Virus record (IMG/VR): IMGVR_UViG_3300025266_000029
Coordinates: 1-30,823 of that record
Length of the DNA: 30,823 nucleotides
Reading direction: 5' to 3' (one strand)
Source of the DNA: a virus
Positions 8,009 to 30,123 of this stretch are shown here, piece after piece. Each line of letters begins with the position of its first letter. Position 1 is the first letter of the stretch. The notes beneath the pieces were generated by a model. It was not told the origin of the DNA and did not search any database. It was given only the letters and a program-made list of their open reading frames with translations. Both the position numbers and the translations under genes were made by a program.

Positions 8009-11000
8009 AGTAAAGTTCTCGCGATTGCGCCAATTCCTAGGAGTGTCCCAGCCGCTTCTTGCGGTGAGTTCATACGCGTGTATGCGCCATCGAATGGACC
8101 ATCTTGAATTATCTTATCGGCCAGCTCAGCCGTTGGACCAAGTAGCGTGGCTAAGGATGAGCCACCCCAATCACCAGAGCGTTGAGCCATAGTAATAAGA
8201 CCGAGAGGCCCGTCTAATCCTGCACGTCCAAACAGCTCGGTGAAGTATGTGCCGTAATCCATCTGGTCGGTTCTGAGGTATTTAAGGCTTCCATCAATAC
8301 CAGGAATTGCGTAAGACAGTCCGACCTTTGCGTACTCGCGCAGCTCCAGCCCTAATGCAGCCAATGGCATAAAAGAGGCGAGTGTTATTAACATGAGCGG
8401 AGCAAGTGCTGGTACTAGCCCTTTCGCGCCACCCTTCCCTTCTAAGAAACGCATATAGCCTTCGCGCTCCAGGCCCTCAAGGATTACTTTGTTGAAAGCG
8501 TATATGAAAGACTTCATCTGCCAGATCAAAGCAAAACGAGGATCTGATGCCCAGATGGGTCTCTCTGCGGCATTAGGACGCAGGACCGAGCTCTCTACAA
8601 AGCGCTGCAATGCAGCTTTAACTGCCTGGCCGTCTTCGCCATCGAACGAAAAATCATTTTCCTCCCAGCGGCGCACCTGATCATAGGTTACGCCGAGCTG
8701 AGAAAGATAACGCTCCGAGCGATCGGACGGGTTGTTAGCGTGCTCAATCAAGAAGCGTTTACCCATACCTGATGCGAACTCGCGAGACAGGTTTGTTAAC
8801 CCGCTAAGGCCAGTCCACTTAAAGAACTTATCGGTTGCCATTCTTGCAGTAGGGTCGAGCATGTCGCTATCTGCCTGAGACATCCACGCATTTGCCGCGG
8901 CTTCTGGCATGACTACACCAATATCATTAGCCAAACGCTTCGCCGCTTCTTTGTCTTTTATAGTGCTCATGATCTGCTTGAGCGCCATACCAAAACCGTT
9001 GAACTCTCTAGTCTGAACAATCGCTCCCGCAAAATCGGGGACCGACGCTAGCGTAGCGAAAGGAAGCAAAGTGACTAGGTTCAGGGTAGCGAGGTAACTG
9101 TTCGTCTTGCGCCAGAACGGGGACAGGTGCGTTACGTTACCTACGTAGGCGTTAAGTACAGACTCAACGTTTGCGCGCTGCGCCTTAGTCATGCCCTTTA
9201 ACATAGGCCCGAGCTTATCTTTACCCGACGCGTCTTTGGTAGCGCGGTTCCATTCGACACGTTTTGTGATGTTGTCGACGTAGCTCATCAAGGCGACTTC
9301 AGGCTCTTGTACAAAACCAAACGTAGCCAACACATCGGGCGGAATGTTTTTAGTTAGCTGTATTTTAGCCTCAACTGCCGCTGCGGGGTTTATGGCATCT
9401 AGGTCACTAGGTACGTCAGTATCTGAGTCAATAATTCTCTGGTACTGACCCAACCGCGCGACGGTTTTCTCAACGCTCTTACGGTCCGCTTTTGGATCCC
9501 ACTTCAGCACCAAATCAACGAATGCTTTTGGGTCGTTCGCTATCTCGGGCAAGCTGAGTAGGACAGGAAAGTAATCCTGGCGGAAACCGATGTCCGAGTT
9601 GGATGGCTCTACATACTCACGGTGCATCTTCTCGAGATACTCACGAATAGCCTTTGCTTTAGGCTCCTTGAGTTTTGCAGTCGGCGTTCTACCTTGCGCT
9701 TCTTTCAAGGCGCGTTGCACTTCTTCGGTAGTCCAATCAGTCCCTACCGCATCAAATAATCCTGCGCGCCACTTATCTCGCGCTAACTGTCTAGCCTGTA
9801 CAAAACCGAGACCTGATCTAGTGTTCGATCTTACATAAAACATGTCAGCGAACGTGTCGCCAGCAGCCATCCGCAACATGCCATCTGCTGTGCGGACAAT
9901 CCCTAGAATCGCAGTCGCGTGAGGGTTGTTCTCTAAGAAGGCTTTCTGCCACTTTTCGAACTTTCTTCGCCAGCCTTCAGCTCTCGCCTGAGCGCCAGAC
10001 TGGATATTAATCTGATTCTTAAGGGCTATAACAAGCGCCTTTTGTTCCCAAGAAGGTTCATCAGGTATCGGTAGCTCCGGCGGTGGGCCGTCATAACCAC
10101 CGTCGTTGCCCGAACCACCCCCTTCTTGTGGCTGTAAATCTAATGGGGCCTGTTCTGTTGGGCTTTCAACGCCAGCTGCTTCTTGTGTAGGGGCAGTAGG
10201 CTGTGCAGACCGAAGTGCCGCGGCATACGCAACGATCTCACCCGCCTCGTTACGCACGGGCGACGTTATTACTTCGCGGTTCGCTCTCCGCGCTTTCGTC
10301 ACGGCGGTCATGTACTTGTCGAATTCCGGCGCGACTTTATCTGTACGCCTAAAGATATTATGCGATTTCACTTCCTGCCACAGCTGCTTGAACCGGCGGG
10401 CAACACGTTTGAAGTGGCTATCCACAGCATCGTTCGCGGTACGCTTGTCGGCCAGCATATCTTTCTTAGCCCATGCAGCGACTTGGTCGGCATACCACTC
10501 TTCGAACCCAACAGTTTCCCATTGCGGTATTGGCTTATCAGCGTCGCGCGCTGCCTGCCTATCTTGTTCGAAGCGTCGCACTAGTCGACCGAACAGCTGC
10601 TTGTTAGCTATTACGCCGTTGATCTCTTCGTTAAACAGCGCATGCCCCATCTCATGAGCCGCTGTTATAGCGATTGCTGCCTCGTTAGTGTTGTCTAAAT
10701 CATTAAGCATAATGACTGTCGCGCCGTCATATTTCTTATGGAACCCTTTCCGGCTCTGTCTACCAAAGCTATCAACTAAGTATTCCGCAAGTTCCTTGGC
10801 GACCAGCGTAGAGCTAGTCATAGGTTGCAGGGCTTCGAAGGCCGCGCGCTGGACAATACTCTGACCAACAAGCGTGGAGTCAGCCACCTTGCCTACTTCG
10901 ATGCTCATAGTCTTATTGAGTAAGCCGTCTTTTTGCAGCTGCTGTATAAACTTACCTACAGCCGCCTTGTCGCTTAAATCTAAAGGTTTTAAATTAGTAG

Positions 11001-14757: not shown

Positions 14758-16956
14758 TTATTTCGCTTGAGCTTTAGCTTCAGCTTTAGCATTAGCTTCG
14801 GCTGCCGCTATGAGTAGTGCTGCGACATTAGCTTCATCTGCCACCAAATCTTTCACTGAAACGGCTTCACTTAGCACTCCGTCCCTGACGTAGGCTATTT
14901 CGATTACCTTGCCCCCTTTATTACGCGACGCTACTCTGATGTTACTGCCATCAAAGTCTATAGACCCTTTTGGCTCCTTTCGGAAAATGTCTTTATATGT
15001 CTCACCTGAAAAAATACCATTTGGGTCTGAGGCCGCTTTCGCTTGCATATAAAGCCCCACCATGCCGTTCAATGAGGTCATACCCGCTGCGAGTTCTTGC
15101 GGCCCCTGCGCCAGCTTGATTCGCTTAATAAAACTAGGGATACGGCGCGATATCTTCAAAGATTGGTCTGAATCGGCCTCGAACTCATTGGAAGTGGGGT
15201 TCCCGTCTGAATCCATTAACCCGAGTTCTACATGCATCTTGAGTAAGGCCGCCTCGCCTTCCTTGGCAAGTATTTTGGCTTGCCCGTTATCAAACTGGCG
15301 GAGCTGGCGAGCTGCGGTTTCAAAATTAGTCTGCGCATTTCTGGTAGCGGCGCGCCCTTGAGCTTCGGCGCTATCTAGCTGCGCCTGCTGCAAAGTACCT
15401 ACGTCTTGGTCGCCTCGCTCTACAAGGTTAGTCATCGCCTGTGCCATAGCGGCTTTTTGCGTAGTACTACCGTCGTTAGTTGCAGACATGACCCACGCTA
15501 GTTTTAGACCTTCCTGTCTATTTATCCTCTGGTCTTTGAGCGCTTGTTCTAGCTGCGCTTGTGTGTCAATACCGTTAGCTTTAAGCACCTCATCGACCTG
15601 CGCTTTTTGCTCATCTGTAGGCGCGCTCGTACTATTTATAATGGCGTCTCTCACGCCTTGTGCAGAAAGCTCAAAAGTAGGTGCGGTTATCGCAGGACCA
15701 CTAGAGGCAGGGAGGCCCGTGCCTTTTGGCGTTACGCCAGTGCCTTTCTGGGCTTGTGGGTTGAACGCACCTTCGATTCTATCGACAGAGATTGCACGTC
15801 CTTGCGCAGCAATTTCTGCTCTGTTTTCATTCTTGCTCTCGTTATAGTCAGGGCTATCGGCAGGCATATCACCAATGTCAGATAAGCCTACAAAGCGCCC
15901 TGGGGCGCTGGTCTTAATAGAATCCCAAGCACTGCCGATTGCTTTGCCTGGTTGCGCCATCAGATCACCTACTTCTGCGCCTACAGCCCCACCTGTCTTA
16001 TCCCATAATTGACGCAGGTCCTGCGACGTGCCTAATCTTTTGGCAATAGTCTTCTTCATAGCGGGATCGTAGCTTTCCCACTTTTCTCGGGTTATCCCTT
16101 TGTCCGCTAGTAACTCTTGTAGGGAGCCTGGGGCTATTCCACCCTGCTCTTCTTGATTCTCAGCAAACCTAGCATCAGCTTTTGCTTGGCCGCGCGCTCT
16201 CAAGTCGTCAGGATCACCGCCGACGCTCGTGTAAATGGATAGCAGTGCGTCAAGAGCACCTTCCTCTTCGATGTCTATATCCTCAACCGCGGCACGAAAC
16301 TGCGTCAGCTGGTCTTGGCCTTCTATTTTTTCCAGCGCTAGGTCTATTGTCTCTCGTTGAGCCATGTTGGCTGTTATCAAATCCGCAGTAGCTAGATAAG
16401 AATTAGTGTTTTCTAAGCCCCCGTCGCCGACAGCCGTTTGGTAACGGGCGTTCATTACTTTCTCAAGATGCTGCGGAGATATCTTTTGTACGGGATCTTT
16501 TGGGTCTGCTGTACGACCTTCGGTCATAGGCACAACAGCACCGGTATCTCTGCGCTTCATCCACGGTGTATACGAGCCGTCCTCATTTTTACGAACCTCG
16601 ACAATATCCGCGCCGACCATGTCTCCATTTTCGGCTTCGAAACTTTTGTAGCGCTCAGTACCCTCATCATTTAACATTTGTAACGCTAACTCGGGCCTAT
16701 CTTGGAGGAGTCGGAGTCCATCTGTTTTGTTCCAAGAGGCTGGCTCAGCACCGACCGATGAAAGATGCCCATCAATCTGAGACACGAGCTGTCTAGCGTC
16801 ATCTTTTCTTGTAATTAGATTAGCTGCAGTGTTCTGGTTATCCTGCTGCTCACGCTGTATCTGAAGCGCTTGGTTCTTACGAGTAGTATCGGCCTTGTTC
16901 TGGAACGAGGCTTGCGCGCCCTGTACGCCAGCTAAAATACCTTGTGCTAAGCTCAT
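14758..16956 (-). CDS. Internal virion / ejection protein (T7 gp15-like in position)
   Basis: This 732-residue, mostly helical protein is rich in Ala, Gln, Asp and Lys. It begins MSLAQGILAGVQGAQASFQN, followed by a Gln/Asn-rich coiled-coil-like region (RKNQALQIQREQQDNQ). It ends with an alternating Ala/Glu/Lys tail (AEANAKAEAKAQAK). No catalytic motif is evident. Size, composition and position between two small Ala-rich virion genes and the giant ejection protein fit the middle member of a podovirus internal-core set. The ATG has TTAGGT about 10 bases upstream. Only 15 bases separate it from the giant gene. Function is inferred from order and composition, not from a sequence match. Confidence 0.65.
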   Translation of the reverse strand: MSLAQGILAGVQGAQASFQNKADTTRKNQALQIQREQQDNQNTAANLITRKDDARQLVSQIDGHLSSVGAEPASWNKTDGLRLLQDRPELALQMLNDEGTERYKSFEAENGDMVGADIVEVRKNEDGSYTPWMKRRDTGAVVPMTEGRTADPKDPVQKISPQHLEKVMNARYQTAVGDGGLENTNSYLATADLITANMAQRETIDLALEKIEGQDQLTQFRAAVEDIDIEEEGALDALLSIYTSVGGDPDDLRARGQAKADARFAENQEEQGGIAPGSLQELLADKGITREKWESYDPAMKKTIAKRLGTSQDLRQLWDKTGGAVGAEVGDLMAQPGKAIGSAWDSIKTSAPGRFVGLSDIGDMPADSPDYNESKNENRAEIAAQGRAISVDRIEGAFNPQAQKGTGVTPKGTGLPASSGPAITAPTFELSAQGVRDAIINSTSAPTDEQKAQVDEVLKANGIDTQAQLEQALKDQRINRQEGLKLAWVMSATNDGSTTQKAAMAQAMTNLVERGDQDVGTLQQAQLDSAEAQGRAATRNAQTNFETAARQLRQFDNGQAKILAKEGEAALLKMHVELGLMDSDGNPTSNEFEADSDQSLKISRRIPSFIKRIKLAQGPQELAAGMTSLNGMVGLYMQAKAASDPNGIFSGETYKDIFRKEPKGSIDFDGSNIRVASRNKGGKVIEIAYVRDGVLSEAVSVKDLVADEANVAALLIAAAEANAKAEAKAQAK

Positions 16957-16966
16957 GAATAATTAC

Positions 16967-17554
16967 CTAAAATGCGAATGCAAGAATTGCAGCAGAGGCA
17001 AGTCCGCCCACTGCGCTGAACGTTTGTGCTTTTGAGGCCGCCTTAGCTGAGTCATAAGCGTTTTTGCGTTGCGTCGCACTCTGCGCGGCACCCTGCATCT
17101 GCCCGAGGGAGGAGCGGTTAACCCCTTGCCCGATGTTAATTAGGTCGCCGACAGCTGCTTGATTAAGATCTTTCTGTGCTAACCGCGCGTCATTCACAGA
17201 CTGGGCCTGGCCGAGATTGTTTGCACGCTCCAGCCCGCGAGATTGCTCTTGGCGCTGGGCTGGAGTTAAGGCAACTCCATATCGCGAAGCGTTACGATCT
17301 GCTATACCTGACATCAACCCTTGTGCGCCTTTAGCATTGACCCGCGCCTCGTCAATCAGAGAGGTATCGTTCTGCGCTCTATCGAGCAGATCCTCTTCGA
17401 AGCCGCGGTACTGGCTTACATAATCGATGTAGTCATTGCGTGTAATAGACGCATACGCCGCGTCAGGATTGCTAACGCTAGGTAGATTAGATACGTAATC
17501 TCCACCGCTAAAACCTAGCGCGCGTCCCATCGGTCCAATTGCATACTGTGACAT
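16967..17554 (-). CDS. Small internal virion protein, C-terminal hydrophobic tail
   Basis: The protein has 195 residues. The central region is Ala/Gln/Arg/Asn-rich and helical (RQEQSRGLERANNLGQAQSV). The C-terminus (residues ~172-195, AKAQTFSAVGGLASAAILAF) is a single hydrophobic helix able to enter a membrane. This resembles T7 gp14-type ejection proteins in size, composition and location, although I see no firm sequence signature. It has an excellent ribosome site, AAGGAG, 9 bases before the ATG. It precedes the 732-aa and 2245-aa virion genes, so the three probably act together to carry DNA across the envelope. Confidence 0.6.
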   Translation of the reverse strand: MSQYAIGPMGRALGFSGGDYVSNLPSVSNPDAAYASITRNDYIDYVSQYRGFEEDLLDRAQNDTSLIDEARVNAKGAQGLMSGIADRNASRYGVALTPAQRQEQSRGLERANNLGQAQSVNDARLAQKDLNQAAVGDLINIGQGVNRSSLGQMQGAAQSATQRKNAYDSAKAASKAQTFSAVGGLASAAILAFAF

Positions 17555-17577
17555 TTTTTAACGCTCCTTAATAAAGG

Positions 17578-18261
17578 TTAGTCGAAGAACGAACTAGCGG
17601 CCAGACGACCGCTAAATCCCGATACTTTATTACCGTTTCCGTCGACAGGGCTGAAGAAGCCGCCCTTGTTAATTTTTTGCGGGCCTTCTTTTCCATCCGC
17701 GCCCTTAGTCATAATGGGAGTTTTGTCTGGGTTCTGCGCTCCAGCCGAGGTCCGCATATTCTTAGCGCCCTGCATTACCAGAGAGGTTCCGATCTGTGCT
17801 GCAGCGGCAAATTTTGCGGATCTAACAGTCTGCTTCGCTTTCGCCTGGGTAAGTACTCGCGACGCGCCCATGTTTGCCGCTGCACTCATGCCCTTTGTTG
17901 CGTCCGCAGCCTGACCGCGCGCAGTACCTAGCACGCCGATCTGCATATCATTTTTTACTTTGAGCCCCGCTTTATCTGCTAGCCCCAACTGGGCTTGGTA
18001 GGCTTGGGCTTCCGCTCCACCATTTGCTCCAGTCGCCGCGCGGTCATAGCTCGCTTTACCTGCAAGTGTCTGCATAGTGTCAGCATTGGCACGACCTCTG
18101 AGTACGTCAGAGGTATCGTCCGTCTTGGATTCGTCACGCATCTTCTGCAGGAGGGGGTCGTACTTCTGCTTGAAGTATTTGTTCTCCGCCATCGCGACAG
18201 CGGCTGACGCTTTCTCAGCTGCGGAGGGTTGATATTCTGACTTTTTAGGTTTACTACCCAT
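17578..18261 (-). CDS. Ala-rich internal virion protein
   Basis: The protein has 227 residues. A basic start (MGSKPKKSEYQPSAAEKAS) is followed by an amphipathic helical middle with many Ala, Gln and Lys (QTVRSAKFAAAAQIGTSLVM) and a Gly/Asn-rich C-terminus (KGGFFSPVDGNGNKVSGFSG) ending SSFFD. Composition and gene order suggest a second small ejection or core protein beside the 195-residue one. The ATG overlaps the GNAT-like gene's stop as TAATG, and GAGAG lies about 8-12 bases upstream. I do not recognise a named family. Confidence 0.6.
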   Translation of the reverse strand: MGSKPKKSEYQPSAAEKASAAVAMAENKYFKQKYDPLLQKMRDESKTDDTSDVLRGRANADTMQTLAGKASYDRAATGANGGAEAQAYQAQLGLADKAGLKVKNDMQIGVLGTARGQAADATKGMSAAANMGASRVLTQAKAKQTVRSAKFAAAAQIGTSLVMQGAKNMRTSAGAQNPDKTPIMTKGADGKEGPQKINKGGFFSPVDGNGNKVSGFSGRLAASSFFD

Positions 18262-18716
18262 TACAATTCTCTCGTATAAACCACTGTTTCTTTTTTCCAG
18301 CCATCTGCGAGAAAGTATTTCTCTAGTGCCGTAACTGGGGTCCGTGTTTCTATGTTATTAAACCCGCTCTCTTTCGCTACGCTAGTAAAGAAAGAGATGT
18401 ACTTAATCGCGCAACTTTGTCCGCGGTCCTTTGTCCAGGCCAACCAGATAAAGAACGTTCTCGCCCCTGTAAACTCATCCCGCTCTGCGGTACTAATTAC
18501 AAATCCCTCCGGTGCAACCCAGAGGTGAGCTTCTTCATTTAGGCAAGCTGCATATACATCTTCTGCTCTGAACGTAAGCTGAGGTTGCTCAGCTAAAATC
18601 TCTTCAATACCGTGTTTAACCCAATCCCATTCTTCACGTATGTGGGCAAGTACTGGTTCAACCGCCGTTACCATAACGTCTGCGTCTTGTTCTCCAAGGG
18701 CCTGATGATCCGCCAT
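18261..18716 (-). CDS. GNAT-like (acetyltransferase-fold) phage protein
   Basis: This 151-residue protein follows the layout of GNAT-fold proteins often encoded among podovirus core genes. It has an N-terminal helical part (VEPVLAHIREEWDWVKHGIE), strands EAHLWVAPEGFVISTAE and TFFIWLAWTK, a helix with SCAIKYISFFTSVAKESGF, and a closing strand NIETRTPV followed by ALEKYFLADGWKKETVVYTREL in two parts. I cannot confirm an acetyl-CoA-binding loop; the usual R/Q-x-x-G-x-G/A is not clear, so it may be a structural relative without activity. The ATG at 18716 has CAGGA 9 bases upstream but lies 59 bases inside the previous gene, an unusually long overlap. A second ATG at codon 15 lacks a ribosome site. 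Confidence 0.65.
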   Translation of the reverse strand: MADHQALGEQDADVMVTAVEPVLAHIREEWDWVKHGIEEILAEQPQLTFRAEDVYAACLNEEAHLWVAPEGFVISTAERDEFTGARTFFIWLAWTKDRGQSCAIKYISFFTSVAKESGFNNIETRTPVTALEKYFLADGWKKETVVYTREL

Positions 18717-19338
18717 ATTTCACGTTCCTGTGTACGCCAGTGTCTGCGTGCCGAGCACGTCGCTCTGCGGATTCAACACCTTGGTTAAATAGGCTGCCGT
18801 ATATTTGCGCGCCCATTAGGTCTGTCCAGTCTTTGTTTGGAATTCTAAGAATCCTGCTTAAAGCACCGTTCACGATGGTGTCGCGGTAGTCGTTCATAAC
18901 GTCGTTTGCGCAGGAAGTACTTGTATGCGTGGGTCTAAGGACGGCCCGTATCACAGTACTGTTCACGCTCGTCACCATTGGGATGGGCGCTAAGATAAAT
19001 AAGCTAGATGTCTGCTGAATGAAGTATTGGGGTACGCCGCTGCCGTCGCGCCAGTTAGGCAACCGCTGCTCCAGTAACGTGGTAGTAATAGGCTCAACAT
19101 CCTTACCCCCATGAGTAACCCACAATATCTTCTGTACCGACGTCCCCGAAGGAGCTTCTAGATCGTACTCATAGATATTGGCGACAGTAGTCAACGGGTC
19201 AAGCTCAGCTTGATAAACGCCTGCGCGCTCACAAAGCTCGATGACTGATGCACGAACGCTATTCTGTACGAGGGAGTCAGGACATCCAGACACCATAGGC
19301 AAGATTTCAGGTAGTAGCGTCTCGTAGGAAATCGCCAT
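18658..19338 (-). CDS. Connector / tail-adaptor-like virion protein
   Basis: The protein has 226 residues. It starts MAISYETLLPEILPMVSGCP and has VRASVIELCERAGVYQAELD and a C-terminal helical part (MNDYRDTIVNGALSRILRIP). This looks like the second head-to-tail adaptor of podoviruses, which follows the DUF6682 gene. It ends with a strongly basic tail (WRTRRRRYGNGG), part of which is encoded in the 59-base overlap with the GNAT-like gene. The ATG has AGGAATA upstream, and only three bases separate it from the preceding gene. Function is inferred from order and general fold pattern. Confidence 0.6.
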   Translation of the reverse strand: MAISYETLLPEILPMVSGCPDSLVQNSVRASVIELCERAGVYQAELDPLTTVANIYEYDLEAPSGTSVQKILWVTHGGKDVEPITTTLLEQRLPNWRDGSGVPQYFIQQTSSLFILAPIPMVTSVNSTVIRAVLRPTHTSTSCANDVMNDYRDTIVNGALSRILRIPNKDWTDLMGAQIYGSLFNQGVESAERRARHADTGVHRNVKYGGSSGPWRTRRRRYGNGG

Positions 19339-21876: not shown

Positions 21877-21895
21877 ATATTAGTACAGCTAATAT
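21877..21895 (-). promoter_or_regulatory. Operator-like dyad, capsid-distal
   Basis: Perfect ATATTAG-N5-CTAATAT, extended on both sides by TA/TA so that nine bases match in each arm. TATAAT is found at one flank on the plus strand and TACAAT at the other on the minus strand. It is about 226 bases before the capsid ATG. Confidence 0.65.
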
Positions 21896-21956
21896 TATAA
21901 TGCAACACCTAAGTATGTATTAGTGTGATGTCGGGGTCGACAGACACGACGAGCGC

Positions 21957-21977
21957 AAAAACTAGCTGCTTCTAGCC
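21957..21977 (-). terminator. Weak terminator-like hairpin after the 75-aa gene
   Basis: On the minus strand GG-CTAG, loop AAGCAG, CTAG, then TTTTT. Four Watson-Crick pairs plus two G-U pairs precede five Ts. The stem is short, so termination would be partial at best. Its position right after the gene and before the capsid leader is what makes it worth listing. Confidence 0.3.
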
Positions 21978-21978
21978 A

Positions 21979-22206
21979 TTACACAGTTACCTCAAGATCA
22001 GTTTCGATCCAGACTTTGGCCCCACATGAGAGGGGCTTATCTGGACTGTACACAACAGTAGCCACTACCTCGCCATCAGCAGAAACTATTTCTGCCCTAT
22101 TAACTTTACGGTTGTTTTTATAGTCTTTAACCGTTAACACTGGCTCGGCTGCACCCTTGCTGTTAGCGCGTATGTTGTGCTGATTAACGTGGATGCGAGT
22201 CTTCAT
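21979..22206 (-). CDS. Small phage protein of unknown function
   Basis: The protein has 75 residues: MKTRIHVNQHNIRANSKGAA, a middle VLTVKDYKNNRKVNRAEIV and a C-terminus VVATVVYSPDKPLSCGAKVW then IETDLEVTV. The YSPDKPLSCGAKVWIET segment is familiar from small proteins of unknown function in many phages, often near the capsid genes. The predicted fold is all-beta. I take the ATG at 22206 rather than the preceding TTG. It lies three bases after the stop of the DUF6321 gene and probably depends on coupling, since only GGTGAT close by could serve as a ribosome site. Confidence 0.65.
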   Translation of the reverse strand: MKTRIHVNQHNIRANSKGAAEPVLTVKDYKNNRKVNRAEIVSADGEVVATVVYSPDKPLSCGAKVWIETDLEVTV

Positions 22207-22209
22207 CAA

Positions 22210-22500
22210 TCACCACTTTACCTTGTCAGCCCAGTATGCCGCCGACATCTTTCCCTTTGAAATGTTCTTACCATGTCGGGCTTTGAAGCTTTTACGCTTG
22301 GCCTTCATCTTGTCAGACTCCCCAGACTTTGGGGCTCCCGCAGTAGACGCTCCTTGCTCTCCAAACCGGATGGTTTTTACCTTATCGCCCTCTTTCGCCA
22401 CGACAACATGTGATTTTTTTGCGTGGCTAGGCGTCCGCTTTGGCTTATTAAAGCCCGAGACTCCTGCTCGGGCTAGTCGTGGGTCTTTTTCTACTGGCAT
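22210..22500 (-). CDS. DUF6321-like small basic phage protein
   Basis: This 96-residue basic protein carries FNKPKRTPSHAKKSHVVVAK, then DKVKTIRFGEQGASTAGAPK, KRKSFKARHGKNI and a final GKMSAAYWADKVKW. This near-complete motif set is the DUF6321 family, found in phages of several morphologies. The abundance of Lys/Arg and the conserved ARHGKNI segment suggest nucleic-acid or capsid-interior contact, but no biochemical role is established to my knowledge. The ATG has GAGGTAGGT immediately upstream, and ten bases separate it from the scaffold stop. The conserved position among scaffold and capsid genes hints at a head-assembly role. Confidence 0.82.
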   Translation of the reverse strand: MPVEKDPRLARAGVSGFNKPKRTPSHAKKSHVVVAKEGDKVKTIRFGEQGASTAGAPKSGESDKMKAKRKSFKARHGKNISKGKMSAAYWADKVKW

Positions 22501-22510
22501 ACCTACCTCG

Positions 22511-23497
22511 TTAAAGAATATCGCCGCGCATACGCTTCAAAGTTGCTTCCGGCAACGCCGCAAACTCCTCTTCAGTCATGTCGGACAGGTTAGACGTCTT
22601 CTCGCCATGCATCGCCGAGCTTTCACCTGGCAATTCGGGTGGTTGCGAATCCGCAGCCTTCAGCTTTCGACTAACAGTGGCCCGCTTTTTGGCCAGTTCG
22701 TCTGTTTTTTGGGCCTTTCCGGCCAAACTTGGCGCTTCTTGGTCGGCTTCTCCCAAATCGTGGTCTTTTACAACGTATCGAACAGCTTTTGACAGGGCCT
22801 CCACGCCTTCGTAGCCTTTCATCATGAAAGCATCGCGCAGTTCAACGACTTCATTAGTCATCTCTTCGTTGAAATCCTCCGAGTTTCGATCGAAGACAGG
22901 GTACGCTTCTTCCGTAGCGTTTGCGGCTTGCTGAAGAGCGGTCTGCTGGCGGTCTTGGTTGACTGTCTGAGACATTTCTTGGCGCATTTCGAACTCTAGC
23001 TCGGCACGTTCTGCCTTTCTAATCTCTCTGCGCAGGGCAACTGCTTTGGCCGACTCGCCATCCAGCACCATATTCTGATATTCGACTTCTTTTGCATCAA
23101 AATCGTAGGTCTCAGGCGCTTCTTCGTTTTTAACATTAGCTGCATTTGCTTCATCGAGCTGCTTTTGCAGCGCTTTCTGTTTAGCGAGCACTTCATCGAG
23201 TCTGGCCTTGGGCACCATCGGCTTCTTTGAGGTTTTTTCCTTCGTTACAGGCGCTTCTTCCTCGGCTTCTTCCTCGGCTTCTTCCTCAGCTTCTTCCTCA
23301 GCACTTTCTGGCACCAATTCTTGCTCTTCTTCTACACTTTCTGGCACCAATTCTTGCTCTTCTTCTACACTTTCTGGCACCAATTCTTCCTCGGTAAAGC
23401 TCAAGTCAAGCGTCTGCTGGGAATCTTCGTCGGGGATGTCCGCGCCAGGCATAACATCAAACATAGTTGTAGTGTCTTCTTTCGTATCTTCGCTCAT
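22511..23497 (-). CDS. Acidic scaffolding-like protein
   Basis: This 328-residue protein lies between portal and capsid genes, where podoviruses encode the scaffold. It is very acidic. Residues ~30-85 hold three copies of the 11-residue unit ELVPESVEEEQ followed by four AEEE units. The middle is predicted coiled coil (KALQKQLDEANAANV; ALRREIRKAERAELEFEMRQ), and the C-terminal part is helical (KKRATVSRKLKAADSQPPEL) and ends MTEEEFAALPEATLKRMRGD. A basic helix near the C-terminus is usual for scaffold binding to capsid. CAGGAG lies 8 bases before the ATG. It ends with the DUF6321 gene ten bases away. Confidence 0.82.
   Translation of the reverse strand: MSEDTKEDTTTMFDVMPGADIPDEDSQQTLDLSFTEEELVPESVEEEQELVPESVEEEQELVPESAEEEAEEEAEEEAEEEAPVTKEKTSKKPMVPKARLDEVLAKQKALQKQLDEANAANVKNEEAPETYDFDAKEVEYQNMVLDGESAKAVALRREIRKAERAELEFEMRQEMSQTVNQDRQQTALQQAANATEEAYPVFDRNSEDFNEEMTNEVVELRDAFMMKGYEGVEALSKAVRYVVKDHDLGEADQEAPSLAGKAQKTDELAKKRATVSRKLKAADSQPPELPGESSAMHGEKTSNLSDMTEEEFAALPEATLKRMRGDIL
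23253..23400 (-). repeat. Tandem repeats inside the scaffold gene (12-base and 33-base units)
   Basis: A 12-base unit encoding AEEE-type steps is repeated about four times near 23253-23300. A 33-base unit starting ACTTTCTGGCACCAATTCTT (plus strand) begins at 23303, 23336 and 23369. The three 33-base copies are almost identical, indicating recent slippage or unequal exchange, and length variation between relatives is likely. Confidence 0.85.
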
Positions 23498-25600
23498 TTA
23501 AGAACTCCTGTTGGTGTTTTGGAATGCTGCGGTGGCCAGCTTGGTCGCAGCATTGGTTTGGGATTGGGTCTCTTTTGTAGTGTTATTAAGCGAGGCTAGC
23601 TCACGTCGTAACGCGAGCTGCTGCTCATTGATCTCGAGCTTGGCCTGTATCTCTGCCATACGGATCTGTGGGTCGACGTCAGTCGCGTCTTGCGTTTTCG
23701 CGATGTTCAGTGCGACTTCAGACTGTAACTTCTTAACTTCCGCATCCTGCTTGGCAATCTCGAGCTGCAACTGCTGCATTTGTATCTGCTGCTGCTGTGC
23801 CATCGCTTCTTGCTGCTCTGGAGTAGGCGGCTCTTGGCCAGTCATCTGGCGGATACGCTTAGCGAGCTCACCTTTTCTAGCTAGGTGGCTGTACTCAATG
23901 ATCGCATCGTCTGGAATGACAACGCCTGCCTGACGAAGGTTAAGGGCCTCTGCAAACTGGATCTCATCGAAGCTGTCTCGCGCGGGTGCTGTGGCGACAA
24001 TAACGTCGTACTCGCCGATAGTAAGGTCGTTAACTACACGCCCTTCAGGAGTCTCTTGGTTAATGACCATCTCTTCGCGGGGCTTGAGCGGATCAGCTTC
24101 GTTAGTCACTTGGATCACGCGCTGCTCTGTATAGAAAGTCTGCACTAGGTTAAGAACGCTTTCAGCAAGGTACTGGCGAGATTTACGCAAGTTATCCAAA
24201 GGTACTTGGATCATGATCGCGCCGCGGTTCTGTTTAGCTTGGATCGCGATACCTGATACTTCAGCACTGTCCGTGCCGAGCATCGAATCATTAACGCCGG
24301 ATATCGTCTTTATGTTCAACGCGGCTTTCTGCGCAATGCGATCTAGGCCGGTCGGTATCTGGTTCGGTTGGATCTTGCTTGGGGGGTTAGTGCCGCGTGC
24401 ATATTCAAGTACGAGACCCGTCTCCGCTCCGTGCTCCTCTAAGTCGTCCGCAGTCATGCCAACCAATGATCCAGCCTCAACCATCCACCCACTATTAGCT
24501 GTGGTATTAACTATGTGCAATTCTTGAGACGCAATTTTGTTCAGCTGCTCCTGTGGAGATAGCAGGTTACGGACAACGCCGAACGGTCGACCGCGTCGGA
24601 AGTAACAGAAGAACGGTACGATCGTAAACTGGTTATAGGGGGACCAAGCATCGTGCAGCACTACTTTGTCGCAGGTTACTGTCCAGCGGATCTTCCTCAT
24701 AACCTTGCTAATAAGCGTAAGATTATACTGCTTGGCGAACTTTTTATTCTTAGCCTCGCTCCATTCGTCGGGTGCTTGCCGCTGGTCACCTGTGTCGGGG
24801 TCGACAAAGAATTGCGAACGGGCGATCTTCTTGTGTTGGCGCTCGACAACCCGCAGCGCTTTGACGTTGCGATATTCCTCATCGCCAGGGACGCCGGCTC
24901 CGAAATAGTCGTCGTTTGTTTCCGTATTACCGAACCGCGTCTCTTGGTACTCGACAGAATCTGGTCCGAACGACATACCGTTCTCAGCTACAAACAGCAG
25001 CCGGTCGGCTTTGTCCTTACCGTAAAGCTCTTCGATTTCATCCAACGTCATCCACTTAGACTCGAACACTTCGTTCCATGTTTTAGGGTCTGCATCTTTG
25101 GCGTCTGGATCGATTAGTATGTCCAGCGGGTCTTTGGCCGTGATCCGTACTTCGCCTTCAACATGGTCATTAAAGTCCATACGGACATCAAAATAGCCCC
25201 TACCGTCCATGATCAAGCCATCGCTGAAGACCTGCTGCTCAACCCAATCTAACTTGTTGTTGTCGGATATCTGCATGTACAACTTAGTCAGGGTGTGGGC
25301 CACTTCTTCGTCGCCACCACGTCGCGGTTTAAACTGAATGTCAGCTCTGCGCGTCGACTGCTCACCCAAGATGGTGTTCACTGTCGGAAGAATAGTATTA
25401 ATAGTAAGTGCGGGGCGACCTTCGGCCTCTAGAGCAGCCTGATCATCGTAGTCCCACTGGTCTCCGCGATAGTACTCATCGCACTTGTGTGCCATTTCGA
25501 CATAATCGAGGTGCCCGTTGTCCCGCGCGCGCTCGTATCGAGCCCACTGGGTGCGGGTGATTTCTTCTTCCTTCGCAGGACTGATCTTCTTCTTTGTCAT
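23498..25600 (-). CDS. Portal protein (P22 type)
   Basis: This 700-residue protein forms the dodecameric ring through which DNA enters and leaves. It shows the P22-type portal pattern: ARYERARDNGHLDYVEMAHK, then YYRGDQWDYDDQAALEAEGR, PALTINTILPTVNTILGEQS, EQQVFSDGLIMDGRGYFDVR and KDPLDILIDPDAKDADPKTW. Later RRGRPFGVVRNLLSPQEQLN and IASQELHIVNTTANSGWMVE fit the stem and wing regions. The C-terminal ~110 residues are Gln/Glu-rich coiled coil (QEAMAQQQQIQMQQLQLEIA), like the barrel of P22 portal. Length is close to P22 gp1 (725). It starts two bases after the TerL stop; a weak GAG precedes the ATG. Confidence 0.93.
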   Translation of the reverse strand: MTKKKISPAKEEEITRTQWARYERARDNGHLDYVEMAHKCDEYYRGDQWDYDDQAALEAEGRPALTINTILPTVNTILGEQSTRRADIQFKPRRGGDEEVAHTLTKLYMQISDNNKLDWVEQQVFSDGLIMDGRGYFDVRMDFNDHVEGEVRITAKDPLDILIDPDAKDADPKTWNEVFESKWMTLDEIEELYGKDKADRLLFVAENGMSFGPDSVEYQETRFGNTETNDDYFGAGVPGDEEYRNVKALRVVERQHKKIARSQFFVDPDTGDQRQAPDEWSEAKNKKFAKQYNLTLISKVMRKIRWTVTCDKVVLHDAWSPYNQFTIVPFFCYFRRGRPFGVVRNLLSPQEQLNKIASQELHIVNTTANSGWMVEAGSLVGMTADDLEEHGAETGLVLEYARGTNPPSKIQPNQIPTGLDRIAQKAALNIKTISGVNDSMLGTDSAEVSGIAIQAKQNRGAIMIQVPLDNLRKSRQYLAESVLNLVQTFYTEQRVIQVTNEADPLKPREEMVINQETPEGRVVNDLTIGEYDVIVATAPARDSFDEIQFAEALNLRQAGVVIPDDAIIEYSHLARKGELAKRIRQMTGQEPPTPEQQEAMAQQQQIQMQQLQLEIAKQDAEVKKLQSEVALNIAKTQDATDVDPQIRMAEIQAKLEINEQQLALRRELASLNNTTKETQSQTNAATKLATAAFQNTNRSS

Positions 25601-28315: not shown

Positions 28316-28344
28316 ATATTAGCTGAGCTAATATTTAATCACAA
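28316..28344 (-). promoter_or_regulatory. Promoter with embedded operator-like dyad, possible leaderless start
   Basis: The dyad at 28316-28334 is perfect: ATATTAGCT and AGCTAATAT around one central base. On the minus strand TTGTGA (28344-28339), a 17-base spacer, and TAATAT (28321-28316) form a sigma-70-like pair, each 4/6 to consensus. The -10 lies within the dyad, so a bound protein would block RNA polymerase. The predicted start of RNA falls at about the ATG at 28310. Confidence 0.6.
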
Positions 28345-28805
28345 GAAGAATCGTTAATAGTCTTCACCCACCAATAAAACATGTCTTCAGATAGGGTATG
28401 TTTCATGATGTTTATCCGATAGCAGACGAGCTGCGTGTTGGCGACGGTATAACCTTTTTTCCCATTGATACGATCTATTGAGGCGTTACAGTCTTTCCAT
28501 CCTGAGCCGTCTTTGTGGTGAGTCAGGAACACCCCTGAAATTGCGCACCTCCCCTTTTGCGCCTCCCACAAGGCTATAAAGTCCTCGGGTGTCAGGTCCC
28601 ATACGTAGTCTGCTCCGCGCTTGCCAGAGCGTGCGTTAGATTTACTCTGGGAGAAGAGGTTCCGTAGGTAGTTTTCATAGGACGCAGATATGCGGATCTG
28701 CTCTTTCTTTTGTTTACAAGAGGGGCATGTTTTTCTACCTGATTTAACTGAGTTGGGCGGTAACAGTTGGTGACATGCTGCGCATTTTATAAGGGGGGGT
28801 GCCAT
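28335..28805 (-). CDS. HNH endonuclease-like protein with N-terminal zinc ribbon
   Basis: The protein has 156 residues. The N-terminus has CAAC (Cys8/11) and CPSC (Cys27/30), a zinc ribbon. The C-terminal part has RCAISGVFLTHHK, then NASIDRINGKKGYTVANTQL and VCYRINIMKHTL. This is the variant HNH pattern often seen in phage enzymes, with SIDRI, GYT, N and LVC...N..K, where the first His of the classical motif is replaced. It may be a stand-alone homing-type nuclease or a packaging helper, since HNH proteins beside terminases assist cos cleavage in HK97-like phages. I choose the ATG at 28805; an in-frame ATG at 28820 lies inside the dyad. Neither has a clear Shine-Dalgarno site. Confidence 0.82.
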   Translation of the reverse strand: MAPPLIKCAACHQLLPPNSVKSGRKTCPSCKQKKEQIRISASYENYLRNLFSQSKSNARSGKRGADYVWDLTPEDFIALWEAQKGRCAISGVFLTHHKDGSGWKDCNASIDRINGKKGYTVANTQLVCYRINIMKHTLSEDMFYWWVKTINDSSCD

Positions 28806-28810
28806 AATGC

Positions 28811-28829
28811 ATATTAGCATACCTAATAT
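28811..28829 (-). promoter_or_regulatory. Operator-like dyad 5 bases ahead of the HNH gene start
   Basis: Perfect ATATTAG-N5-CTAATAT. On the minus strand its proximal end reads TAATAT, then GCATT, then the ATG, the same spacing as at the 88-aa gene. A T-rich and A-rich tract lies 10-40 bases farther upstream and could act as an UP element. No convincing -35 hexamer is visible. Confidence 0.6.
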
Positions 28830-29248: not shown

Positions 29249-29442
29249 ACAAGAATCATCCCCACCTCATCACCTGGTGCATTGGCGCCTTTCTGCTAAG
29301 CACGGCTGTCCCGTTCGCGGGACTGGCACTCATCCCGGTCTACATAGTCATCGAACGCCGCCGCAGAGCCGAGGCAGCACGCCTCGCTCACCTCAGCTAC
29401 AAATATGCCTTTGAAGCCCACGCCAACATGAGGAATAAGTAA
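29245..29442 (+). CDS. 65-aa membrane protein (two hydrophobic segments)
   Basis: The protein has 65 residues. Residues 8-36 are hydrophobic with a short turn (LITWCIGAFLLSTAVPFAGL then ALIPVYIVI), enough for a membrane hairpin. They are followed by a strongly basic stretch ERRRRAEAARLAH, which should stay in the cytoplasm. Family unknown; small membrane proteins in phage early regions often modify host membrane functions, but that is only context. GAAGGAG lies about 7 bases before the ATG. The start overlaps the previous stop (ATGA), and the stop overlaps the next start (TAATG). Confidence 0.65.
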   Translation: MNKNHPHLITWCIGAFLLSTAVPFAGLALIPVYIVIERRRRAEAARLAHLSYKYAFEAHANMRNK

Positions 29443-29627
29443 TGAGATATTCCAAAGCCTACGACGAATATACCCGTGAACCACGGACCACGACCTTTAA
29501 CCGCGCTCCACGACGCACGAACCACGCTCAAGAGCTTGCCGATCGCTATTCGGAGTACACGCGCATGGGCTTCAGCCATGACGATGCACGTCGCCTGGCC
29601 TATCACCATCACTCCAACAAACTATAA
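29442..29627 (+). CDS. 61-aa basic protein with heptad DNA repeat inside
   Basis: The protein has 61 residues with Arg, His and Tyr abundant: YSKAYDEYTREPRTTTFNRA, PRRTNHAQELADRYSEYTRM, GFSHDDARRLAYHHHSNKL. The C-terminal half, with MGFSHDDARRLAYHH, looks like a short helix-loop-helix or UBA-like segment. The N-terminal half is encoded by degenerate 7-base repeats (29475-29530), so that part of the protein may be shaped by DNA function rather than by selection on protein. GAGGAATAAGTA precedes the ATG, and TAATG couples it to the gene before. No family recognised. Confidence 0.6.
   Translation: MRYSKAYDEYTREPRTTTFNRAPRRTNHAQELADRYSEYTRMGFSHDDARRLAYHHHSNKL
29475..29530. repeat. Degenerate 7-base repeats (GAACCAC-like)
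   Basis: Bases 29475-29495 read CGT then GAACCAC, GGACCAC, GACC; after a gap follow GCTCCAC, GACGCAC and GAACCAC. The heptad form is roughly GRNYCAC. Related runs occur at 29759-29812, 30141-30180 and 30520-30540. Confidence 0.55.
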
Positions 29628-29638
29628 GGATACGCATC

Positions 29639-29758
29639 ATGTTTATAGGAACGTTCTTAGTATTCACGCTCATCATAGTACTCAGCGGAGGCTCCGGCCT
29701 CGCCCAACTCCTCATGAATCATGAACAGCGGTCGGAGAAAACCCATGAAAAAGACTGA
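29639..29758 (+). CDS. 39-aa single-span membrane protein
   Basis: The protein starts MFIGTFLVFTLIIVLSGGSG, which is one membrane segment (residues 2-16), and ends with a polar tail (LLMNHEQRSEKTHEKD). ATAAGGA lies about 8 bases before the ATG, eleven bases after the previous stop. Small size keeps confidence moderate, but the strong ribosome site and hydrophobic pattern favour it. The next candidate gene overlaps its end by 14 bases. No family recognised. Confidence 0.55.
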   Translation: MFIGTFLVFTLIIVLSGGSGLAQLLMNHEQRSEKTHEKD

Positions 29759-29846
29759 ACGAATCATGAATCGCGCTCCACGGTCCGCGGCTCGTGCCTC
29801 GCGCGCCCGCACAGCAATGTGTGTAATGGACGGAAAATGTGTGTAA
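29745..29846 (+). CDS. Possible 33-aa basic peptide running into the iteron array
   Basis: The frame reads MKKTERIMNRAPRSAARASR then ARTAMCVMDGKCV. CGGAGAAAACCC places GGAG about 7 bases before the ATG. The final codons come from the TGTGTGTAATG repeats, whose TAA provides the stop. It could be a real basic peptide or an accidental frame across heptad-repeat DNA (29759-29812). The NRAPR motif also occurs in the 61-residue protein, because both come from the same repeat DNA. Confidence 0.35.
   Translation: MKKTERIMNRAPRSAARASRARTAMCVMDGKCV
29759..29812. repeat. Degenerate 7-base repeat run
   Basis: From 29761 the sequence divides into heptads GAATCAT, GAATCGC, GCTCCAC, GGTCCGC, GGCTCGT, GCCTCGC, GCGCCCG. 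It follows the same pattern as the run at 29475 and directly precedes the iteron array. Confidence 0.6.
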
Positions 29847-30123
29847 TGTTTATTTCGAGACCATTACACACAACTTATCTATGTATATCAATGACTTACA
29901 CCAATGTGTGTAATGTGTGTAATGTGTGTAACGGTTTCTGAGTTCATATTAGAACTTGTTTCAAACACTGTTTTATTTTGTAAAAGGAAATTCAATTTGA
30001 AATCCATTACACACATTACACACATCTCTACAGCCCCCGTGTTTCCTCACTTTATACCCTCTAAACCATTACACACATTGCTACACACACATTACACACA
30101 TTGGGTAGTTCATTACACACAAC
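29816..30123. repeat. Iteron-like array: eleven TGTGTGTAATG copies flanking an AT-rich core
   Basis: Forward copies begin near 29818, 29838, 29905, 29914 and 29923, the last three in 9-base tandem. Inverted copies (CATTACACACA) lie at 29862, 30005, 30014, 30067, 30090 and 30111. The left side is mostly forward and the right side all inverted. The core 29934-30003 is AT-rich, with a TTTCAAA/TTTGAAA inverted pair at 29960-29966 and 29996-30002. The structure is like an iteron replication origin with an unwinding element, or a cooperative binding array for one regulator. The 449 bases from 29847 to 30295 contain no convincing gene. Confidence 0.85.

Follow-up and report, generated by a model that had tools for sequence, protein, structure and literature searches.

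The stretch analysed here (hereafter the window) is a linear viral record of 30,823 bases (IMGVR_UViG_3300025266_000029). It represents part of a tailed phage genome, and its minus strand carries the genes for a portal protein (phrog_156), the terminase large subunit (phrog_38) and a major head protein (phrog_334). The subject of this study is an array of short repeats (iterons) in the window, which is a candidate replication origin. The repeat TGTGTGTAATG was found in 10 exact copies, at 29818, 29838, 29905 and 29914 on the plus strand and at 29862, 30005, 30014, 30067, 30090 and 30111 on the minus strand, and in one near-exact copy with one mismatch, ending in AACG, at 29923 (+). The mean number of exact matches in shuffled sequences was 0.01. 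All 11 exact occurrences of the 9-mer TGTGTGTAA in the whole window lie inside the array. The array itself is thereby confirmed. The initial annotation of this DNA had counted eleven copies, five forward and six inverted. All of them are present, but a twelfth site, CTACACACA at 30081..30089 (-), had been missed. Since this site falls in a slot that is filled in relatives, the layout of the array is 6 + 6, not 5 + 6.

The slots of the window were read by hand because the core rule of the script misfired there on a chance site. In the left half, slots L1 (TGTGTGTAA, 29818..29826) and L2 (29838..29846) are exact matches on the plus strand, and the gap of 11 between them is that of the relatives. 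Slot L3 (29864..29872, -) is also exact, and its inversion inside the left half is common to many relatives. The spacer between L3 and L4 holds a perfect consensus site for integration host factor (IHF), TATCAATGACTTA (WATCAANNNNTTR), at 29886..29898 (+). Slots L4-L6 (29905..29931, +) are three tandem sites at a 9-bp period, where relatives have 2-3 tandem copies. They are followed by the AT-rich core (29932..30006), a candidate DNA unwinding element of 75 bp with 28% GC, compared with 49% for the whole window; the cores of the relatives are mostly 71-80 bp long with 17-33% GC. In the right half, all on the minus strand, R1-R2 (30007..30024) are exact matches in tandem at a 9-bp period. R3 (30069..30077), 44 bp past R2 as in relatives, is exact, as are R5 (30092..30100) and R6 (30113..30121). 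R4 is the one-mismatch CTACACACA site, set in a conserved 3-bp/2-bp spacing and found at the same slot in the relative L038. The right-half gaps (0, 44, 3, 2 and 12) are nearly identical in most relatives. The tandem copies described earlier are three forward and two inverted sites beside the core. The core, described there as about 70 bases with its own inverted pair, measures 75 bp, and the pair is weak, its longest exact arms being 7 nt (TTTCAAA/TTTGAAA).

The array was then considered in related phages. There are 80 viral contigs with terminases 78-100% identical to that of the window, and, among isolates, the closest terminases are those of Aeromonas phage phiA008 (49%) and the KPP25-group Pseudomonas phages (about 41%). 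Long relatives are about 55-61 kb. The ends of one of them, G006, overlap by 3.36 kb, and it is therefore a closed genome of about 57.7 kb. Several relatives encode a tyrosine integrase, and the same ones encode a CI-like repressor. A k-mer scan gave mixed-orientation arrays of 9-bp words in most relatives with enough sequence. They lie some 2-3.5 kb upstream of the gene for the terminase large subunit (terL), a position shared by more than 25 related phages, mostly with the same geometry. In the orientation of the window, their common scaffold consists of two sites, an inverted site, an IHF site, 2-3 tandem sites, an AT-rich core of 71-80 bp, two tandem inverted sites and four more. Six sites on each side is the modal count, found exactly in 10 of the 27 scored arrays, with six on the left in 14 and six on the right in 18; the scoring lets in about one chance site per array. 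A perfect IHF consensus is present in 19 of 29 arrays, compared with 0.75 expected by chance, mostly in the L3-L4 spacer and in either orientation. A search for the same array in relatives had been proposed in the initial annotation. Position and architecture are conserved there, so that the lack of conservation named in that annotation as a refutation was not observed.

The word that fills the slots is not conserved in this way. About 20 distinct 9-bp words were found across the relatives, for example TTACACACA (the window), CGTCACACA, TGACACACA, TGCTACACA, TGGTACACA, TGGCACAAA, TGTCTCACA and CTGCACACA, while the slots of one genome mostly share one word. Array position and layout are thus kept across relatives while the word differs between phages. 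The array of L038 (around positions 500-780) mixes TTACACACA, GTACACACA and CTACACACA, three versions of the word that differ in the first base (T, G or C, followed by TACACACA). Judged from its sites, this mixture looks like an array caught in transition between two words. An exact scan of viral contigs for the tandem word of the window gave single matches in 6 stretches and no array in them. The k-mer scan gave no clear array in Aeromonas phage phiA008. Searches of phage records with the DNA of the whole window and of the array gave no match, and a scan of genome contigs for hosts gave two contigs of metagenome-assembled genomes only, at 43% identity, in which no array was seen.

The Pseudomonas phage KPP25 (Kochitakasuvirus) is related in its terL, portal, polymerase and primase-helicase (phrog_24712), and it has a mixed-orientation 9-bp array at a comparable place. 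It differs in that its word is looser, TTCGTAACA-like, and in belonging to a phage group described as lytic. Neither the integrase nor the CI-like repressor of the relatives had a match in KPP25. The early proteins that it clearly has in common with the relatives are a family-A polymerase, a DUF5906 primase-helicase, a RecB-like nuclease, an SNF2-like helicase and a 121-aa protein. A separate repeat, CAGCCCAGC, is present in the early region of KPP25 (L093:29863-30127) in 17 copies, 16 of them in one orientation.

The genes for the primase-helicase and the family-A polymerase were found in complete relatives, where that for the primase-helicase lies about 8-10 kb to the right of the array, beyond the end of the window fragment. 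The primase-helicase has Pfam matches to DUF5906 and to a VapE-like family. The best structural neighbours of its model were the primase-polymerase-helicase of Nitratiruptor phage NrS-1, then the SaPI5 primase-helicase (one entry with double-stranded DNA) and D5-type helicases. The C-terminal 144 aa are predicted to form a winged helix of helix-helix-hairpin type, with a predicted local distance difference test score (pLDDT) of 88.7. The best match of this domain was NrS-1 617-718 (Z 7.6, root-mean-square deviation 3.1 over 94 residues), and several winged helices matched more weakly. SaPI5 Rep was not in the VIA-align list for the domain, which says nothing either way. Among the five proteins shared with KPP25, the primase-helicase alone falls into a known class of initiators that have a C-terminal DNA-binding domain, and it is therefore the plausible initiator. 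In the relative G004 (IMGVR_UViG_3300046167_000533; flipped 21888-24412) the primase-helicase gene, whole in other relatives, is in three frames, by assembly error or decay.

These observations can be combined in a reading in which the array is the replication origin of the phage, bound by its DUF5906/SF3 primase-helicase. The six iterons on each side of the AT-rich core would be bound by the C-terminal winged helix of this superfamily-3/D5-like AAA+ protein. Bound IHF would fold L1-L3 back toward the core by bending the left half. Two helicase rings, presumably hexameric and one per half, would assemble head to head, melt the core and prime, and would then pass to the family-A DNA polymerase of the phage. 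The six sites per side, as a count alone, are suggestive of one hexamer per side. An iteron origin that needs an initiator, as put forward in the initial annotation, is the best-supported interpretation in view of the conserved array, the IHF site in a fixed place, the array of the lytic phage KPP25 and the candidate winged-helix initiator. We put the probability that the array is an origin bound by the primase-helicase at about 0.75.

If the primase-helicase binds the array, its wing would be expected to vary with the word, and 17 genomes gave both word and initiator. In clade A (seven genomes, six words among them) no stretch of the protein varies more than the wing hairpin (identity 0.50-0.56 vs 0.83). 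In the three listed initiators of TGCTACACA genomes, Gln replaces Arg in all three, as noted post hoc. A mutual-information screen of all primase-helicase columns was set aside, as it was confounded by clade structure. From these sequence comparisons the wing likely pairs with the word; the pairing is graded as likely and no more because the clade-stratified test given below was not significant.

Several facts weigh against an origin bound by the primase-helicase. In clade B the variability of the wing is not extreme. A clade-stratified partial Mantel test of wing and word distances (n=16) gave p=0.23. An earlier unstratified one (n=14) gave p=0.004, yet other windows of the protein scored higher. 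The residue patterns at the wing are post hoc: of the 9 genomes with TGC/TGG/TGT words, 8 have an Arg before the second wing strand, which all other genomes lack, and a nearby Arg is lost in three of the four genomes with a word that ends other than in CA, the fourth keeping it. The window does not include the initiator gene, and the putative origin does not adjoin it, unlike the origins of the Staphylococcus pathogenicity islands (SaPIs), which are next to rep. The GC-skew check suggested in the initial annotation was favourable only in part: G006 has its minimum by the array, whereas G003-G005 do not.

It is worth noting that other interpretations of the array are conceivable. In each of them the binder must be able to change. 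The array might be an iteron origin bound by another phage protein, unrecognised or small and diverged, that loads the primase-helicase, much as plasmid Rep proteins and lambda O load DnaB. The p value of 0.23 in the wing and word test would agree with this, and there are several small early proteins without a known family. However, no further early protein with a recognisable DNA-binding domain is common to KPP25, and the related Rep and Cch2 helicases of SaPIs bind their origins through the C-terminal domain (PMC7581432). We therefore regard a separate binder as rather unlikely.

It seems quite improbable that the array is an operator or immunity array, with the early genes controlled by a repressor that binds the repeats cooperatively. 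Among the relatives, several are temperate and encode a CI-like helix-turn-helix repressor and an integrase, and diversified operator words would suit immunity groups. Nevertheless, the recognition helix of CI (SQGAISHYLN) is nearly invariant across genomes with differing words, and KPP25 has an array but no CI match. A promoter scan gave no promoter-like site above chance near the array. An operator needs neither an AT-rich core nor an IHF site, and every copy is in one place, unlike stoperators. The cooperative repressor and the decoy array, both offered as alternatives in the initial annotation, gained no support.

The short mixed-orientation sites, with IHF and an AT-rich core, also recall lambda attP, and the integrases carry an N-terminal segment that resembles an arm domain. 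The repeats would then be arm-type sites of the tyrosine integrase (Int) around a recombination core. We consider this very unlikely. Roughly 17-19 kb separate Int from the array in, for example, G004, G001 and G006, no repeat arrays were obvious beside int, and KPP25 has an array but no Int match. Nor does the N-terminal segment of Int follow changes of the word: it is nearly alike in G003 and G006, whose words differ, and it differs between G004 and G005, which share a word. Known attP sites have fewer than twelve such sites. No tRNA was found when the window and parts of four relatives were scanned for a hint of an att site. A packaging (pac) or partition site, which the terminase genes near the array might suggest, has hardly any probability, since TerS is about 85-88% identical among G004, G003, G001 and the window despite four different words, and the early proteins that were scanned included none recognised as ParB-like.

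As for the surroundings, the array had been placed near the point where transcription diverges. The divergence point (28820/29057) does exist, but it lies about 0.8-1 kb to the left of the array, and the genes on both sides of the array read rightward. A small basic open reading frame of 61 aa (29442..29627, +) adjoins the array and has a similarly placed homologue in several relatives; it had no PHROG match, and its homologue in G004 had no Pfam match. Another small basic reading frame, MKKTERIMNRAPRSAARASRARTAMCVMDGKCV (29745-29846), overlaps the first two iterons and may be a leader peptide or a chance frame. An Endonuclease VII-like HNH gene (28335-28820) is kept at the divergence point in relatives. 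Several relatives keep an early block made up of a MoxR-type ATPase, an Nmad5-like protein and a DUF2201 metallopeptidase/VWA protein, which in G004 lies at flipped 16240-19096. Short direct repeats of TAAAGCTAA, in 4-5 copies, stand directly upstream of terL in G001 (9865-9957) and G003 (46844-46888).

The putative origin bound by the primase-helicase was further compared with known systems. SaPI origins have an AT-rich region between two iteron sets. They are served by the self-loading Rep/PriRep helicases, and the SaPI5 primase-helicase is a fold neighbour of the candidate initiator, though with only about 10% identity in the structural alignment. The SaPI origin adjoins rep, whereas here the initiator gene would be about 8-10 kb away, in a phage (G006, about 58 kb) that has a family-A polymerase of its own, fixed slots of six on each side and an IHF site. 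In phage P4 (ori1/crr), the alpha protein is a primase-helicase fusion, and its C-terminal domain binds short repeats that lie in both orientations around AT-rich DNA. The crr of P4 is separate, however, and an IHF-containing layout of six and six sites is not known there. The NrS-1 protein is the closest solved structure to the helicase and the C-terminal domain, but has only about 20% identity. The Rep proteins of iteron plasmids are not known to be helicases, and their origins use DnaA boxes, whereas the DnaA box TTWTNCACA is absent from the array of the window and present in just 2 of 29 arrays. The origins of such plasmids (pSC101, R6K, P1, RK2) resemble the array in their iterons and AT-rich element and, in some, in IHF, which assists several plasmid origins (PMC4980987). 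By its testable features, namely repeats around an AT-rich region and an SF3/D5-like primase-helicase with a predicted C-terminal winged helix, the array appears to fit the self-loading helicase origins. It would be a variant of them in its IHF site, fixed 12-slot scaffold, distant initiator gene and fast-changing word.

A tentative extension, which we hold possible but not probable, is a lock and key. The 12-slot scaffold, with six sites per hexamer and IHF, would be kept, while the word would be rewritten in all slots as the wing of the initiator changes. In this way, relatives infecting one cell would be kept from firing or hijacking each other's origins. If so, nature would have supplied, in the approximately 20 words, a library of orthogonal initiator-origin pairs. 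Fixed slots with a changing word would provide many matched pairs of initiator and iteron, by which the evolution of origin specificity and the question of six sites per hexamer become directly testable. If the array is an origin, the start of replication is located for an abundant, uncultured group of aquatic phages, and the primase-helicase family phrog_24712, listed as 'unknown function', would gain a role.
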